Source: an uncultured Flavonifractor sp. (GTDB lineage Bacteria > Bacillota > Clostridia > Oscillospirales > Oscillospiraceae). From it: a stretch of 41,922 bases of DNA. The position numbers were made by a program, and so were the translations under genes. Within the stretch, counting starts at the first letter, position 1, and each line of letters starts with the position of its first letter. This document shows positions 37,743 to 41,922 of this stretch, in pieces. The notes under the pieces were generated by a model. That model searched no databases and was not told the DNA's origin. It worked only from the letters and a program-made list of their open reading frames with translations. The stretch is from NCBI GenBank assembly GCA_947346365.1, contig CANAAV010000005.1, positions 93,177-135,098 on the forward strand, in the 5' to 3' direction.

Positions 37743-37864
37743 AGCCGTAAAATGGCTATGGCGCCTTTTCCCCGGCACGGTTCGCTCCCCCGGCTGCGCC
37801 GGGAGACGTGGCTGGCTCCTGATTGAATGGGGCCGGGAACAAGCATTTAGGGAGGAATTTTATC

Positions 37865-39409
37865 GTGAAACGGTTAAAAAAACAGCTGACGGCCGCCCTT
37901 CTCGCAGCCATCCTGCTGGCGGCGGCAGTCCCCGCCTTCGCGGCAGATGCGGAAAACTTCAGCGGCCTGGACAGCGGCAGCACTTCTATGGCGAAGCTGA
38001 GCAAAGGGGAGATCGCGCAGATGCTGGCGGACGCCCCGCTGGAGCTCCCCGGCAACGTATTTGACGAGGCCCCCTCCTGCATCGCCCCCTATACGGCAGG
38101 CAGGGTAACCGACAGCGCCCTTCAGGCGGCGGCGGACCGGCTCAACGCCCTGCGCAGGCTCGCGGGACTGCCGGAGGTCGCGCTGGATGCGGCTTTAAAT
38201 GAAAACGCCCAGTACGGCGCGGTGATTGTCGCCGCTATGGGCGCGCTGAGCCATACGCCCGCGCAGCTTCCCGGCATGAGTGGCAGTTTTTATGAGAATG
38301 CCTATTCCGCCACATCCAGCAGCAACCTCAGCGCGGGCCGGACGCTGACTGGCGCTGTAGACGGCTTTATGGACGACAGCGACGCCAGCAATATCGACCG
38401 TTTGGGACACCGGCGCTGGCAGCTCAATCCCGCGATGGGCAAGGTGGGCTTCGGATTTGCCTCCACCGACAGCGGATACCGCAGCTATGTGGCGGAAAAG
38501 GTATTTGACGCCAGCGGGAGGGGCTGCGAGTACGATTTCGTGGCCTGGCCCGCCTCGGGCCATTTCCCCAATGATCTCGCCGCTTTCCGCAGCGCCACCG
38601 CCTGGAGCGTAACCTTGAACCCCCAGCGCTACCAGACCCCCGCCCAAAGCGCGATTACCGTTACCCTCACCCGGGAGAACGACGGAAAAAGCTGGGTGTT
38701 CTCCGGAACAAATTACACCCCCTCCGCCTCGGGAGACTATTTCAACGTGGATACGGTGGGGTACGGCGTGCCCAACTGCATCGTCTTCCGCCCGGGGGAC
38801 GCCGGCAGCTATGAGGGCCTCTACACCGTCCGCATCGACGGTCTGAAGGACCATTCCGGCCGGCCGGTCGCAGACTTTACGTATCAGGTGGATTTCTTCA
38901 ACGCCGCGGCCTATTTCGACGCGCCGCAGCCCGCGCCTTCCCCTGAGCCTGATGCCGCCCCCGTCCCCAGCAGCGGCGCCGCCTACCCGTCCACGCAGCA
39001 GGTCTGGGTGGACGGAAGGTCCGTGACCTTCCAGGCCTACGCCCTGAGGGACGCCAGCGGCAACGACACCAATTACGTAAAGCTGCGGGATGTGGCCTAT
39101 GTTCTCAACGGTACCCCCGCCCAGTTCCAGGTGGGCTGGAACGGCTCTGTGTCGGTTACTACAGGCGCAGCTTATACCGCCAATGGCAGCGAAATGTCCA
39201 CTCCCTTCAGCGGCATCCGGAGCTATGAGGCCGCAGCCGGGGCAACGCTGGTGGATGAGGTCCCGGTGCAGCTGTCCGCGATCCTGCTCAAGGACGACGC
39301 GGGCAGGGGCTACACGTACTATAACCTGCGCCAGCTCGGCCAGGCCCTGGGCTTTGGCGTAGACTGGAGCGCGGAAACCGGAATCACTGTAAGGGGACAG
39401 GATAATTGA
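37865..39409 (+). CDS. Secreted CAP (SCP-like) domain protein with C-terminal stalk domain
   Basis: Protein of 514 residues. Residues 1-30 are a signal peptide (LLAAAVPAFAA). A CAP/SCP-like domain spans about 85-240 (ADRLNALRRLAGLPEVALDAALNENAQYGA, GALSHTP, FYENAYS, GHRRWQLNPAMGKVGFGF). A beta-rich middle part and a Pro-rich linker (PQPAPSPEPDAAPVPSS) follow. The last 120 residues resemble the copper amine oxidase N-terminal (stalk) domain (YVKLRDVAYVLNG, YYNLRQLGQALGFGVDW), often a cell-wall binding module. GTG 37865 lies 9 nt after GGGAGGAA. Function unknown; related proteins act at the cell surface. Confidence 0.87.
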   Translation: MKRLKKQLTAALLAAILLAAAVPAFAADAENFSGLDSGSTSMAKLSKGEIAQMLADAPLELPGNVFDEAPSCIAPYTAGRVTDSALQAAADRLNALRRLAGLPEVALDAALNENAQYGAVIVAAMGALSHTPAQLPGMSGSFYENAYSATSSSNLSAGRTLTGAVDGFMDDSDASNIDRLGHRRWQLNPAMGKVGFGFASTDSGYRSYVAEKVFDASGRGCEYDFVAWPASGHFPNDLAAFRSATAWSVTLNPQRYQTPAQSAITVTLTRENDGKSWVFSGTNYTPSASGDYFNVDTVGYGVPNCIVFRPGDAGSYEGLYTVRIDGLKDHSGRPVADFTYQVDFFNAAAYFDAPQPAPSPEPDAAPVPSSGAAYPSTQQVWVDGRSVTFQAYALRDASGNDTNYVKLRDVAYVLNGTPAQFQVGWNGSVSVTTGAAYTANGSEMSTPFSGIRSYEAAAGATLVDEVPVQLSAILLKDDAGRGYTYYNLRQLGQALGFGVDWSAETGITVRGQDN

Positions 39410-39525
39410 GAAACCGGGATAAACCGGGAGAGGCGGGGGAAGTGCTGGAAAACCCCCGAATATCAACGGGAATGGGCATAATCAGGGCGGGAAAGGCCCG
39501 GACGTTCTCATTTTCATTGAGCGCG

Positions 39526-39557
39526 AAGGCGTCGACGGCGGTCGGCGTCTTTTTTTT
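39526..39557 (+). terminator. Terminator downstream of CAP gene
   Basis: AAGGCGTCGAC/GTCGGCGTCTT stem (11 bp, two G-U) with a GGCG loop and an eight-T tail. It lies about 115 nt past the stop codon. Confidence 0.8.
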
Positions 39558-39634
39558 GTGCCCAGAGGCCACTGGAGGCCGCACGTCGGCGGCGGCGCGG
39601 CGCGGCGGGCACCGGCCCGGCTGAACAGGAAAAA

Positions 39635-39668
39635 CCCCGGAAAACCGCTTAAAAACGGCAATCCGGGG
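39635..39668. terminator. Hairpin, probable bidirectional terminator
   Basis: CCCCGGA (39635-39641) pairs with TCCGGGG (39662-39668), with an inner CCG/CGG stem; T5 on the minus strand and T4 on the plus strand follow. Confidence 0.6.
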
Positions 39669-39821
39669 ACTTTTCTCGATGGCAGGGATGGACAGGACAT
39701 TATGGGGGCCGCTCGGCCACGCCCCGGAAGTCACAGCAGCAGACCAAGAAGGCGTGGGCTTCGCGGCCCTTGAGGATAGTATAGCAGGGTGGCGGGGGAA
39801 ATGCAAGGGGGCCCAGCGTAA

Positions 39822-39910
39822 TAACGCACCGTTAGAGCGTTAGAATTTGGACGAAAATCGGGCGAACCGGCGCAGATCGGGCCGCTGGCGGCGTTACTTG
39901 ACCGTTACTC
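39822..39910. repeat. Iteron-like CGTTA repeat cluster
   Basis: TAACGC (39822-39827) faces GCGTTA (39837-39842). CGTTAGA occurs at 39830-39836 and 39838-39844. CGTTACT occurs at 39892-39898 and 39903-39909, exactly 11 bp apart. Such spaced short repeats suit recombinase arm sites, an excisionase or a replication initiator. Confidence 0.5.
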
Positions 39911-39987
39911 CACAGGGAGGGCACCCTCGCCAGTGCCGCGAATTATGGAGGGAGCAAAGTGACAAATCGCTCAAAACCCGGTCACCA

Positions 39988-40058
39988 TGTCACATTGTTG
40001 AATTTCAGGCATTTTAGGGGCTTCGCAACCGAGTGGAGCCCCGTTTTTCAATGTGACA
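39988..40058. repeat. Nested inverted repeat
   Basis: Perfect outer arms TGTCACATTG (39988-39997) and CAATGTGACA (40049-40058) enclose a GGGGCT/AGCCCC stem. A further GTGACA lies at 39959-39964. It is 42 nt beyond the repressor stop and could end that transcript or be a protein site. Confidence 0.65.
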
Positions 40059-40099
40059 CAAAAACGGATAATTATTTAACCAGAACAGGCCAAAAAAAT

Positions 40100-40573
40100 T
40101 TAGGCGATCACGCTCTGGCTATCGTCGCCGGAAGCGGAGGTGGGCTTTGCTTTTTCTCTCTCGGCGGCATACGTCCAGTAAATAGACTCCATCTTTTTCT
40201 CAACGTGCTTTTTGTACTTGAAGTAAATCAGATCGAAAAGGTCTTCCCGCTCATAAGACGGTAGGAGCCGGAACATGGCAATCAGGTCAGCCTCCTCAGC
40301 CTCAAGGGGACTGCCGTCACATGAGAGTCCTTGCTCAGATTTAATACGCTCCAGGTCATCACTCTTTTTTTCGGGGGGCGTTTCAAGCTCCAGGAGATAG
40401 TCTGCCGACACCTCGAAAATGCGGGCAAGAGCGGCCAGTGCGTTGTACCCGGGCTTGCTTTTTCCAGATTCCCAGTCTCCAACATTTCCAGGGGAAACAC
40501 CCGCAGCCTTTGCAAGTTGACCTTGGGTCATTCCCTTTTTGGCGCGTAATTCTTTCAGCAATGTGTTAAACAT
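40100..40573 (-). CDS. Cro/CI-type XRE transcriptional repressor
   Basis: Regulator of 157 residues. The N-terminal helix-turn-helix (LLKELRAKKGMTQGQLAKAAGVSPGNVGDWESGKSKPG) is typical of phage and conjugative-element repressors. The C-terminal part is helical and charged with no S24 protease or Cys/Ser catalytic pattern, so induction must use another route, for example an anti-repressor or a separate protease. GAGGAGG precedes the ATG. It is divergent from the small-gene operon, with operators in the 150-nt space. Confidence 0.9.
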   Translation of the reverse strand: MFNTLLKELRAKKGMTQGQLAKAAGVSPGNVGDWESGKSKPGYNALAALARIFEVSADYLLELETPPEKKSDDLERIKSEQGLSCDGSPLEAEEADLIAMFRLLPSYEREDLFDLIYFKYKKHVEKKMESIYWTYAAEREKAKPTSASGDDSQSVIA

Positions 40574-40588
40574 AGCGGCCTCCTCGAA

Positions 40589-40641
40589 TTTGCGAAATTT
40601 ACTCGCAAAACTATTGACTTCTACGAAAATGCGAGTATAAT
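40589..40641 (+). promoter_or_regulatory. Divergent element promoter with repressor operators
   Basis: TTGACT (40614-40619), a 16-nt spacer and TATAAT (40636-40641) form a strong plus-strand promoter. TTTGCGA/TCGCAAA (40589-40609) is a perfect 7-bp inverted repeat. ACTCGCA (40601-40607) is also inverted at TGCGAGT (40630-40636), which covers the spacer. The adjacent XRE repressor would block this promoter and its own. Confidence 0.75.
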
Positions 40642-40722
40642 AATAGACAGGTTAAGAAATTAACCGACGCCCCCAGCATATCACAAAAAAACGAAACGCA
40701 CAACAGGAAAGGAACAGCAGAC

Positions 40723-40920
40723 ATGAAAAACGAGAAAGTCCTGGACGCATATATCGCCACGATCGCCGAGATCAACGCCAAGCTCGCCGCCCTGACCGAG
40801 CAGACCGAGAACCACCTGGGACACAGCCCCGAGGAGATCAACTGGGGCCACGTCGGAACCGCCAAGCACGTCCTGGAGCAGCTCACCGAGATCACGGAGT
40901 TCCTGGGCTGCGACAAATAA
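40723..40920 (+). CDS. 65-residue helical protein of the element
   Basis: Small acidic, mostly helical protein (YIATIAEINAKLAALTEQTENHLGHSPEEINWGHVGTAKHVLEQLTEITEFLGC). No family recognised. AGGAAAGGAAC precedes the ATG. It is first in the element operon, about 80 nt after the promoter. A structured repeat starts at the base after its stop codon. Confidence 0.7.
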   Translation: MKNEKVLDAYIATIAEINAKLAALTEQTENHLGHSPEEINWGHVGTAKHVLEQLTEITEFLGCDK

Positions 40921-40992
40921 GCCGAAACGCCCGCGAGGGCGTCGCCGGGAGGAGCCCTACCCGGCCTGACGATGGCAGGGCAACAGAAAGGA
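40921..40992 (+). repeat. Intergenic structured repeat, copy 1
   Basis: 72 nt from the base after the TAA to the next gene's ribosome binding site. Hairpin 1: ACGCCC/GGGCGT with a GCGA (GNRA) tetraloop (40927-40942). Hairpin 2: GCCGGG/CCCGGC with a 10-nt loop (40944-40965). A possible short third stem CTG/CAG follows. Copy 2 at 41687-41759 differs by one substitution and one inserted base. Confidence 0.9.
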
Positions 40993-41002
40993 GCAGCAGC
41001 AG

Positions 41003-41686
41003 ATGAACAGCTACAAGTTTACATTCCATTACCCCGAGAGCAGCGACGAGACCGCCTACATCACCGAGCGGACGGAGAGCGCGGCCCGGAAGGCCCTCCT
41101 CAAGCAGTACGGCAAGGTTGAGATCGTGGACTCCGAGCTCCACGACACCGGCGTCAACGCAACGAAGGCCCAGGAGCGGGAGACCCTGGAGAAGATCAAG
41201 GCGATGGTCGAGGAGCTGGGCCCCCAGTCCTACCTCAAGACGGCCTTCGACGGCGTCTACGAGGTGGCCGAGATGAACATCGAAGAGGACGCGGCCTACA
41301 GCTTCCCGGGACGGGTCAATATCCTTGAGGAGCAGCTTCGGGAGATGGGCAGCAAGTACAACGCCGTGAAACTGGACGCCGCCCACCTACAAGCCCAGCT
41401 CGACGACACCCTCGCCCAGCTTGCGGCGGCGCAGGAGCAGATCGCGACCCTCAAGGGGCGGCAGCTCCCCGCGTGGCTCCACAGCGCCGCCTATGGCCTC
41501 GCGGTCGAGGAGCTCGCCGCCGCCCAGAAGCGGATGGAGCAGAGCGCCGAGACTATGGCCCACTACGCCGAAGCGCCCCAGGACATCGCCTTCGCCGAGG
41601 CCGTCAAGAGCTACCGGGCCGCAAAGGAGCGCCGGGGCGTGTGCGAGCAGATCGTCAAGGGCCTGGAAGCCCTCACCGAAGATTGA
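41003..41686 (+). CDS. Hypothetical element protein (227 residues)
   Basis: Soluble protein with a small beta-rich start (MNSYKFTFHYPESSDETAYITE), an alpha segment with TESAARKALLKQYGKVEIV, and a long coiled coil at about 110-155 (LEEQLREMGSKYNAVKLDAAHLQAQLDDTLAQLAAAQEQIATLK). A helical tail follows. No family recognised. The ribosome binding site AGAAAGGAG is the end of repeat copy 1. Copy 2 begins at the base after its TGA. Confidence 0.75.
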   Translation: MNSYKFTFHYPESSDETAYITERTESAARKALLKQYGKVEIVDSELHDTGVNATKAQERETLEKIKAMVEELGPQSYLKTAFDGVYEVAEMNIEEDAAYSFPGRVNILEEQLREMGSKYNAVKLDAAHLQAQLDDTLAQLAAAQEQIATLKGRQLPAWLHSAAYGLAVEELAAAQKRMEQSAETMAHYAEAPQDIAFAEAVKSYRAAKERRGVCEQIVKGLEALTED

Positions 41687-41759
41687 GCCGAAACGCCCGC
41701 GAGGGCGTCGCCGGGGGGAGCCCTACCCGGCCTGACGATGGCAGGGCACACAGAAAGGA
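41687..41759 (+). repeat. Intergenic structured repeat, copy 2
   Basis: 73 nt, same hairpins as copy 1. The only changes are A to G in the hairpin 2 loop and one extra C near the 3' end. It again starts at the base after a stop codon and ends at the ribosome binding site of the next gene. Confidence 0.9.
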
Positions 41760-41771
41760 AGGACAAGCAGA

Positions 41772-41922
41772 ATGAGAAAAATGAAAAAGATCAACGGTTA
41801 TCTGGTCGTCCGGTTCAATGACCGGGAGAAGCGCGAGTACGAGGACACCGGCCTGGGCAACTTCGGCGTGATCGACGCCGAGCTCTACACCGGCATCCTG
41901 GACGTCGACCGGAGCGTCATGG
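41772..41922 (+). CDS. Hypothetical element protein (partial, runs off the window)
   Basis: The first 50 codons are visible, with AGAAAGGAAGG ahead of the ATG. It begins MRKMKKINGYLVVRFNDREKREYE and continues DTGLGNFGVIDAELYTGILDVDRSVM. The compact beta-rich start suggests a small soluble domain. No function recognised. It is the third gene of the repeat-separated operon. Confidence 0.75.
   Translation, partial: MRKMKKINGYLVVRFNDREKREYEDTGLGNFGVIDAELYTGILDVDRSVM

Follow-up and report, generated by a model that had tools for sequence, protein, structure and literature searches.

A pair of type II hammerhead ribozymes, predicted to separate gene messages, in the early operon of a Mu-like prophage

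Close to the right end of a stretch of 41,922 nucleotides from an uncultured Flavonifractor sp. (the window), a short sequence is present twice between three consecutive genes, raising the question of what kind of element sits so exactly at gene junctions. The initial annotation, which recognized the repeat, placed each copy at the first base after a stop codon, and the copies do begin there, at 40921 after TAA 40918-40920 and at 41687 after TGA 41684-41686. As it also described, each copy runs into the next ribosome binding site, followed by ATG 41003 or ATG 41772, and the two copies differ at two places only: a substitution at 40950, where loop I begins, and a single base inserted behind the tail. 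Both of the hairpins that it drew are real, the GCGA hairpin being stem III and the second, 6-bp hairpin stem I of a ribozyme, the catalytic core of which (CUGACGA / GAAA / GUC, present in both copies) had been overlooked. Among its suggestions, the one favoured by the evidence is a cis-acting RNA that processes the operon transcript, and this RNA can be named as a type II hammerhead ribozyme (RF02276). The reading that we prefer, and consider likely, is that two type II hammerheads, placed among the early genes of a Mu-like prophage, cut a shared RNA into separate gene messages.

Judged by sequence, both copies are type II hammerhead ribozymes, a self-cleaving kind of RNA, with cleavage here predicted. 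The Rfam model RF02276 (Hammerhead_II) scores copy 1 at 40.9 bits and copy 2 at 39.2 bits (cut-off 37). With E-values over the whole window of 4.4e-5 and 1.2e-4, and with a third copy in the genome, the repeat is beyond chance. This third copy, on another contig, is 82% identical, scores 37.4 bits (cut-off 37) and is likewise bounded by a stop codon immediately upstream and a ribosome binding site immediately downstream. It is flanked by two small genes in a second phage region of the same genome (L009 9000-11998, contig 17), which also contains an endolysin gene and a holin-like gene. The parts of both window copies follow the order stem II 5' strand GCC, GAAA, stem III (GCGA loop), GUC, stem I (10-nt loop), CUGACGA, U, GGC, A and GGGC, with stems I and III closed by loops and stem II open, which is the type II layout. 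The required core of CUGANGA, GAAA and an NUH before the cleavage site is matched in each by CUGACGA, GAAA and GUC. By folding energy alone the copies are unremarkable (z -1.8 and -1.2), and the minimum-energy fold competes with the active fold, pairing the stem II 5' strand to the pseudoknot strand and burying CUG in a CUG/CAG hairpin.

Table 1. Features at the right end of the window
Feature	Position	Strand	Basis
Mu-like (Mushuvirus-type) prophage, left end; begins TGTAAGGGGACAGG	39388..41922, runs off contig end	+	homology to G369, FP_Mushu
Prophage repressor (Cro/C1-type helix-turn-helix), divergent from operon	40100..40573	-	PF01381 E 2.8e-15
Early gene 1, 65 aa, phage family phrog_14596	40723..40920	+	PHROGs E 4.9e-19
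Ribozyme copy 1	40921..40981	+	RF02276 40.9 bits; same parse by script; covariation
Copy 1, 5' part	stem II 5' strand 40921-40923; GAAA 40924-40927; stem III 40927-40942	+	
Copy 1 C17	40943; predicted cleavage 40943^40944	+	
Copy 1, 3' part	stem I 40944-40965; CUGACGA 40966-40972; bulged U 40973; stem II 3' strand 40974-40976	+	
Copy 1 pseudoknot	GGGC 40978-40981 with GCCC of loop I 40954-40957	+	
Shine-Dalgarno AAGGAG of gene 2	40988..40993	+	read from sequence
Early gene 2, 227 aa	41003..41686	+	ORF
Ribozyme copy 2	41687..41747	+	RF02276 39.2 bits; same parse by script; identity with G369
Copy 2 stem III and C17	stem III 41693-41708; C17 41709; predicted cleavage 41709^41710	+	
Copy 2, 3' part	stem I 41710-41731; CUGACGA 41732-41738; bulged U 41739; stem II 3' strand 41740-41742	+	
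Copy 2 pseudoknot strand	41744-41747	+	
Ribosome binding site GGAAGG of gene 3	41757-41762	+	read from sequence
Early gene 3, incomplete (50 codons up to contig end)	41772..41922	+	homologues in G369, FP_Mushu

The pairing is best judged from relatives. A set of 82 sequences, one short one of which was dropped, gave 81 distinct, ungapped relatives of a single length class, in which stems II, III and I are paired in 100, 99.8 and 100% with 6, 59 and 150 double changes, respectively, and the pseudoknot between loop I and the tail in 84% with 43. Double changes are seen in 11 of the 15 stem pairs, and none of 500 strand swaps reaches the observed values of pairing or double change. Compensatory change thus affects every stem, and it follows that selection acts on the RNA. 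The initial annotation had named many further copies with compensatory stem changes as support for its proposal, and many relatives and double changes in the stems are what is found. Within the pseudoknot the first four pairs hold well, and the fifth (T-A) is unsupported, being absent in 43 of the 81 relatives; among 268 distinct type II hammerheads, 178 can pair their own tail with their own loop I over at least 4 bp, against a mean of 45 with swapped tails. One U is inserted between A9 and stem II. Because T stands there in 116 of the 268 distinct relatives, the insertion, which Rfam tolerates, is a variant within the family rather than a defining failure.

The prophage whose early operon holds the copies is Mu-like and a relative of Faecalibacterium phage FP_Mushu. 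The window becomes homologous to another genome (G369), and to the opening bases of FP_Mushu (TGTGGGGAGACAGG), at the same position, 39388, and the contig ends at 41922, inside gene 3. The repressor is 44% identical over 129 aa to the XRE regulator of FP_Mushu, and a viral contig (L217) has the same order of repressor, gene 2, hammerhead and gene 3, followed by a Mu transposase (PF02914, PF09299). For the Mu transposase, the sole match in the window's genome is distant (26% identity) and on another contig, the window's contig stopping before the expected place; the remainder of the prophage was not seen in the same, 86%-complete assembly. At the left end, a CAP-domain gene (37823-39409) is interrupted, its frame extending 22 bases into the prophage end at 39388. 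The homologous stretch continues in G369, where the 20 kb examined has one Rfam hammerhead only. There, around L178 13984-14590, the Mushu-like stretch gives way to a nucleotidyltransferase paired with a HepT-like RNase, a tRNA and an ABC protein; since these stand in the place of a transposase, the G369 prophage looks truncated. A cassette array of an integrative element was considered for the window and rejected, the setting being a Mu-like prophage.

Related hammerheads are scattered widely. Within the family, RF02276 matches occur in 21 of 400 genomes, and within the order in 19 of 394 (16 over the cut-off in each case); they are often clustered, with five on one contig of G121 and six on one of G717; the type III model RF00008 reached E 0.001 in three of the 394 genomes of the order and exceeded its cut-off in none. 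Pattern scans of viral contigs, in which the patterns fix part of the sequence and the counts hold among the matches listed, found type II hammerheads in more than 120 stretches at least, and the pattern of the close subtype in 30. Copy 1 is matched by 15 phage records: three of Mushu (two filed as Faecalibacterium phage and one as Mushuvirus), one other phage and 11 Streptomyces phages. Reverse-transcriptase-associated RNAs (RF03080 RT-9, RF03077 RT-2) share phage genomes with hammerheads (L463 32875-32974, L196 7818-8057, L205 789-1028).

Gene 1 has distant relatives in phages of Roseobacter, Rhodobacter, Janthinobacterium and Pseudomonas, and a structure search with it gave nothing useful (best E 0.07, a GTP pyrophosphokinase). 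Family searches with gene 2 gave no match at a useful score; its homologues stand upstream of the same hammerhead, copy 2, in G369, L217 and L466-L468. Gene 3 is 393 aa long in G369 and 404 aa in FP_Mushu, the FP_Mushu homologue being linked through the G369 gene at 34%. A protein search with gene 3 found matches in eight of 400 genomes, six of them from the N-terminus, and in all six an RF02276 match, one of which (G073) scores below the cut-off, ends 15-25 nt upstream. A hammerhead is carried by 18 of 18 distinct gene-3 starts, loci that were mostly retrieved via the hammerhead itself. The genes on its other side vary, being gene 2 in G369, a different gene in L218 and L469, and three unrelated small genes in FP_Mushu. 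Copy 2 and its G369 counterpart share 65 consecutive identical columns, counted from the last base of the stop codon, whereas the surrounding region, genes included, is 83.6% identical over 952 columns. The FP_Mushu copy (record positions 2238-2306) begins immediately behind a CDS that ends at 2237 and precedes the gene-3 homologue (2318); it is missed by the Rfam cut-off and unannotated in the record, which has CDS features only, and the word 'ribozyme' has no occurrence in two Mushu papers (one being PMC5883640). Several gene-3 hammerheads have CCGA for CUGA in a core that is otherwise intact (L218 1751-1816, L219 3910-3975, also L023, L024, L466 and L469), this CC-core being found in four of the 18 distinct gene-3 contexts and in 10 of 429 contexts overall. 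Such copies may be naturally weak or dead ribozymes, or the change may be tolerated; according to the accessible part of PMC3088659, core changes usually reduce hammerhead activity.

Given these parts and their placement, the ribozymes probably cut a shared message into single-gene pieces. The operon would be transcribed from a promoter opposite the repressor, and each ribozyme would fold and cut the RNA after its C17 (40943, 41709). The upstream piece would retain its stop codon and finish with the stem III hairpin, bearing a 2',3'-cyclic phosphate, and the downstream piece would begin with a 5'-OH and the stem I hairpin, the ribosome binding site coming next. The predicted cut would thereby provide genes 2 and 3 each with a separate mRNA end that does not depend on the preceding gene. 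The ribozyme, always before gene 3, is tied to the downstream gene, with the upstream gene exchanged. The sequence comparisons show the identity of the ribozymes, their core, covariation and placement, the linkage to gene 3 and the gain or loss of gene 1 together with copy 1; from these we infer that cutting occurs in the cell and that the cut alters the stability or the translation of the downstream message.

The abutment on stop codons extends well beyond the window. After redundancy removal (429 contexts to 369, with a crude ORF rule of at least 40 codons, longest), the first base after a stop falls exactly on stem II (0 or +1) in 158 of 369 contexts against 23 of 3515 random same-strand positions. 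For the wider interval from -10 to +2 of stem II the counts are 284 of the 369 and 162 of the 3515, and in 10 of the 369 contexts the stop is found deeper than +2 inside the ribozyme. On the downstream side, a Shine-Dalgarno-like site and a start within 70 nt accompany 272 of 369 hammerhead contexts and 423 of 1845 random stretches. At +1 the stop is TAG in 47 of 59 cases, its G doubling as the first base of stem II, and at 0 it is TAA or TGA in 82 of 99. Because an A just before stem II is also common where there is no contact with a stop (142 of 211, the sum of the near, far and none classes), the stop seems to share a structural A. The idea that contact with stop codons is special to type II was rejected: among the matches listed, 42 of 155 type I hammerheads have it at 0 or +1. 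Type III yielded 12 parsed hammerheads only, one of them at a stop. In type I hammerheads of viral contigs the upstream stop can lie inside the ribozyme, at +6 to +10 in 46 of 155 among the matches listed, and these internal stops are partly the TGA of CUGAUGA itself.

The plain reading of the register is compaction; the bold one is gating by terminating ribosomes. A ribosome terminating on an abutting stop would reach over the stem II 5' strand and GAAA. Cutting might then take place only if the upstream gene is not read to its end, and the ribozyme would signal the translation of the upstream gene to the downstream gene, an idea that fits the excess of stops near and on stem II and their rarity beyond +2, and that we nevertheless hold to be unlikely. 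The compactness of phage genomes would by itself bring an intergenic element up to a stop codon, type I hammerheads abut stops as well or have an internal stop, and the register may partly reuse the structural A. Equally doubtful is the fuller version, in which the hammerhead of phage operons would be a translation-gated intercistronic cutter, in register with the stop so that its catalytic core is hidden by a terminating ribosome, and moving with the downstream gene as an insulated leader. If true, cutting would switch the downstream mRNA end according to upstream translation, and small early genes would become interchangeable modules. The term 'stop codon' has no occurrence in the accessible text of PMC3088659, PMC6155905 and PMC10085705, a partial coverage of the literature, and the register is not claimed here as unpublished.

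The initial annotation also saw in the repeat a joint by which units of gene plus repeat are swapped like cassettes. Two concrete cases fit this. In G369 precisely gene 1 with copy 1 is missing, and the leader there runs straight into gene 2's binding site (L217, L467, L468 and L469 also lack the unit); and of two viral contigs, L196 reads A-hammerhead-gene-hammerhead-B and L205 reads A-hammerhead-B, with the junction at TAAGCCGAAAC. As a general rule the idea fares less well, breakpoints being only weakly commoner at hammerheads under a matched control. A first comparison, from which own-genome copies (L001, L002, L004, L005) were excluded as duplicates, found that similarity carried on past the junction for 29 of 170 hammerhead pairs and for 189 of 303 control pairs, an unfair control. 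With matched controls, for which the junctions had to include a ribosome binding site and were weighted per locus pair (the locus pairs not being independent), the continuous fraction was 0.17 at hammerheads versus 0.28 and 0.19 at other junctions, and for 44 shared locus pairs 0.16 versus 0.29 at controls. Breakpoints are thus weakly in excess at hammerheads relative to other phage gene junctions, and the strong claim that hammerheads are recombination hot spots was rejected, matched controls having removed most of the contrast. Among 38 hammerhead pairs at least 95% identical, 27 have no shared flank, six share the downstream flank only, none the upstream only and five both. Sharing components number 13 downstream-only, three upstream-only and five each way (controls 13 and 12, 8 and 9), so that a leaning toward downstream sharing persists, on few events. 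The presence/absence events are compatible with plain homologous recombination. A gene 1 cassette always followed by a hammerhead was likewise rejected, the viral contigs holding no gene 1 relative; the sole other genome with a gene 1 homologue (two of 300, including the window's own) has no hammerhead by pattern in the 3.2 kb examined.

It could be argued from the L196 and L205 pair, from the loci without gene 1 and copy 1, and from the 27 near-identical pairs without any shared flank that the hammerhead is chiefly a recombination joint for gaining, losing and swapping gene-plus-ribozyme units, RNA cutting being secondary or a relic. We regard this as very improbable, since loss of continuity is only weakly stronger with matched controls, a single hammerhead-to-hammerhead skip was met in 411 contexts, and every stem has compensatory changes. 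A recent local duplication of an inactive, functionless structured spacer would account for the near-identity of the copies, and the element could be a remnant because the rest of the prophage was not seen in the same assembly, but this is the least credible account of all and was rejected together with a mobile repeat, given the conserved core, all stems kept by compensatory change, the occurrence in another genus of an identical copy next to genes that diverge by about 16%, and relatives in the family and order genomes counted above and in phages. Nor was any encoded mobility function found with the repeat that would bear out the earlier suggestion that it copies itself.

The preferred reading, ribozymes that cut a shared early message, concerns a kind already known, as tandem prophage hammerheads and the link to Mu-like phages have been published (PMC3088659 and PMC10085705, in their accessible parts). 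According to the text available, prophage hammerheads arranged in tandem were shown to cut in vitro for C. scindens, A. caulinodans and A. tumefaciens, and in the last case also in E. coli (PMC3088659). These bacterial and prophage type II hammerheads (Perreault et al. 2011, PMC3088659) resemble the window's, as far as the accessible text goes, in part order, core and the pseudoknot between stem I and tail, and in that several copies flank small prophage genes; the window's subtype differs from them in the U inserted before stem II, and here the placement at stop codons is quantified. Of all the genes with which bacterial hammerheads and twisters are associated, those of Mu-like phages show the strongest link, according to the accessible part of PMC10085705, which relates that hammerhead, twister, pistol and other ribozymes lie near Mu-like phage genes (Roth 2014, Weinberg 2015). 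The Mu-like setting and the nearness of ribozymes to ribozymes are common to both; unlike that account, as available, the present one names the neighbours: the repressor, the early genes and a gene-3 family with a fixed hammerhead leader. The role of bacterial hammerheads is an open question in the accessible part of one review (PMC6155905), and FP_Mushu was shown, in the accessible part of PMC5883640, to make virions from a cultured strain. What is added here is the register with stop codons, the constant pairing of the ribozyme with a single gene family, two cases of presence and absence, and a copy in an active cultured phage. Handles on the role of hammerheads are thereby provided by the fixed pair of ribozyme and gene 3, exchangeable upstream genes, natural presence/absence pairs, core variants and the FP_Mushu copy. 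The glmS ribozyme is a self-cleaving RNA of a 5' leader that leaves a message with a 5'-OH and needs a metabolite; it and the window's hammerheads are both self-cleaving kinds in a 5' leader, and differ in fold. Integron and other gene cassettes are single small genes, each with a repeat at the junction, whereas in the window the junction repeat is a ribozyme conserved as RNA.
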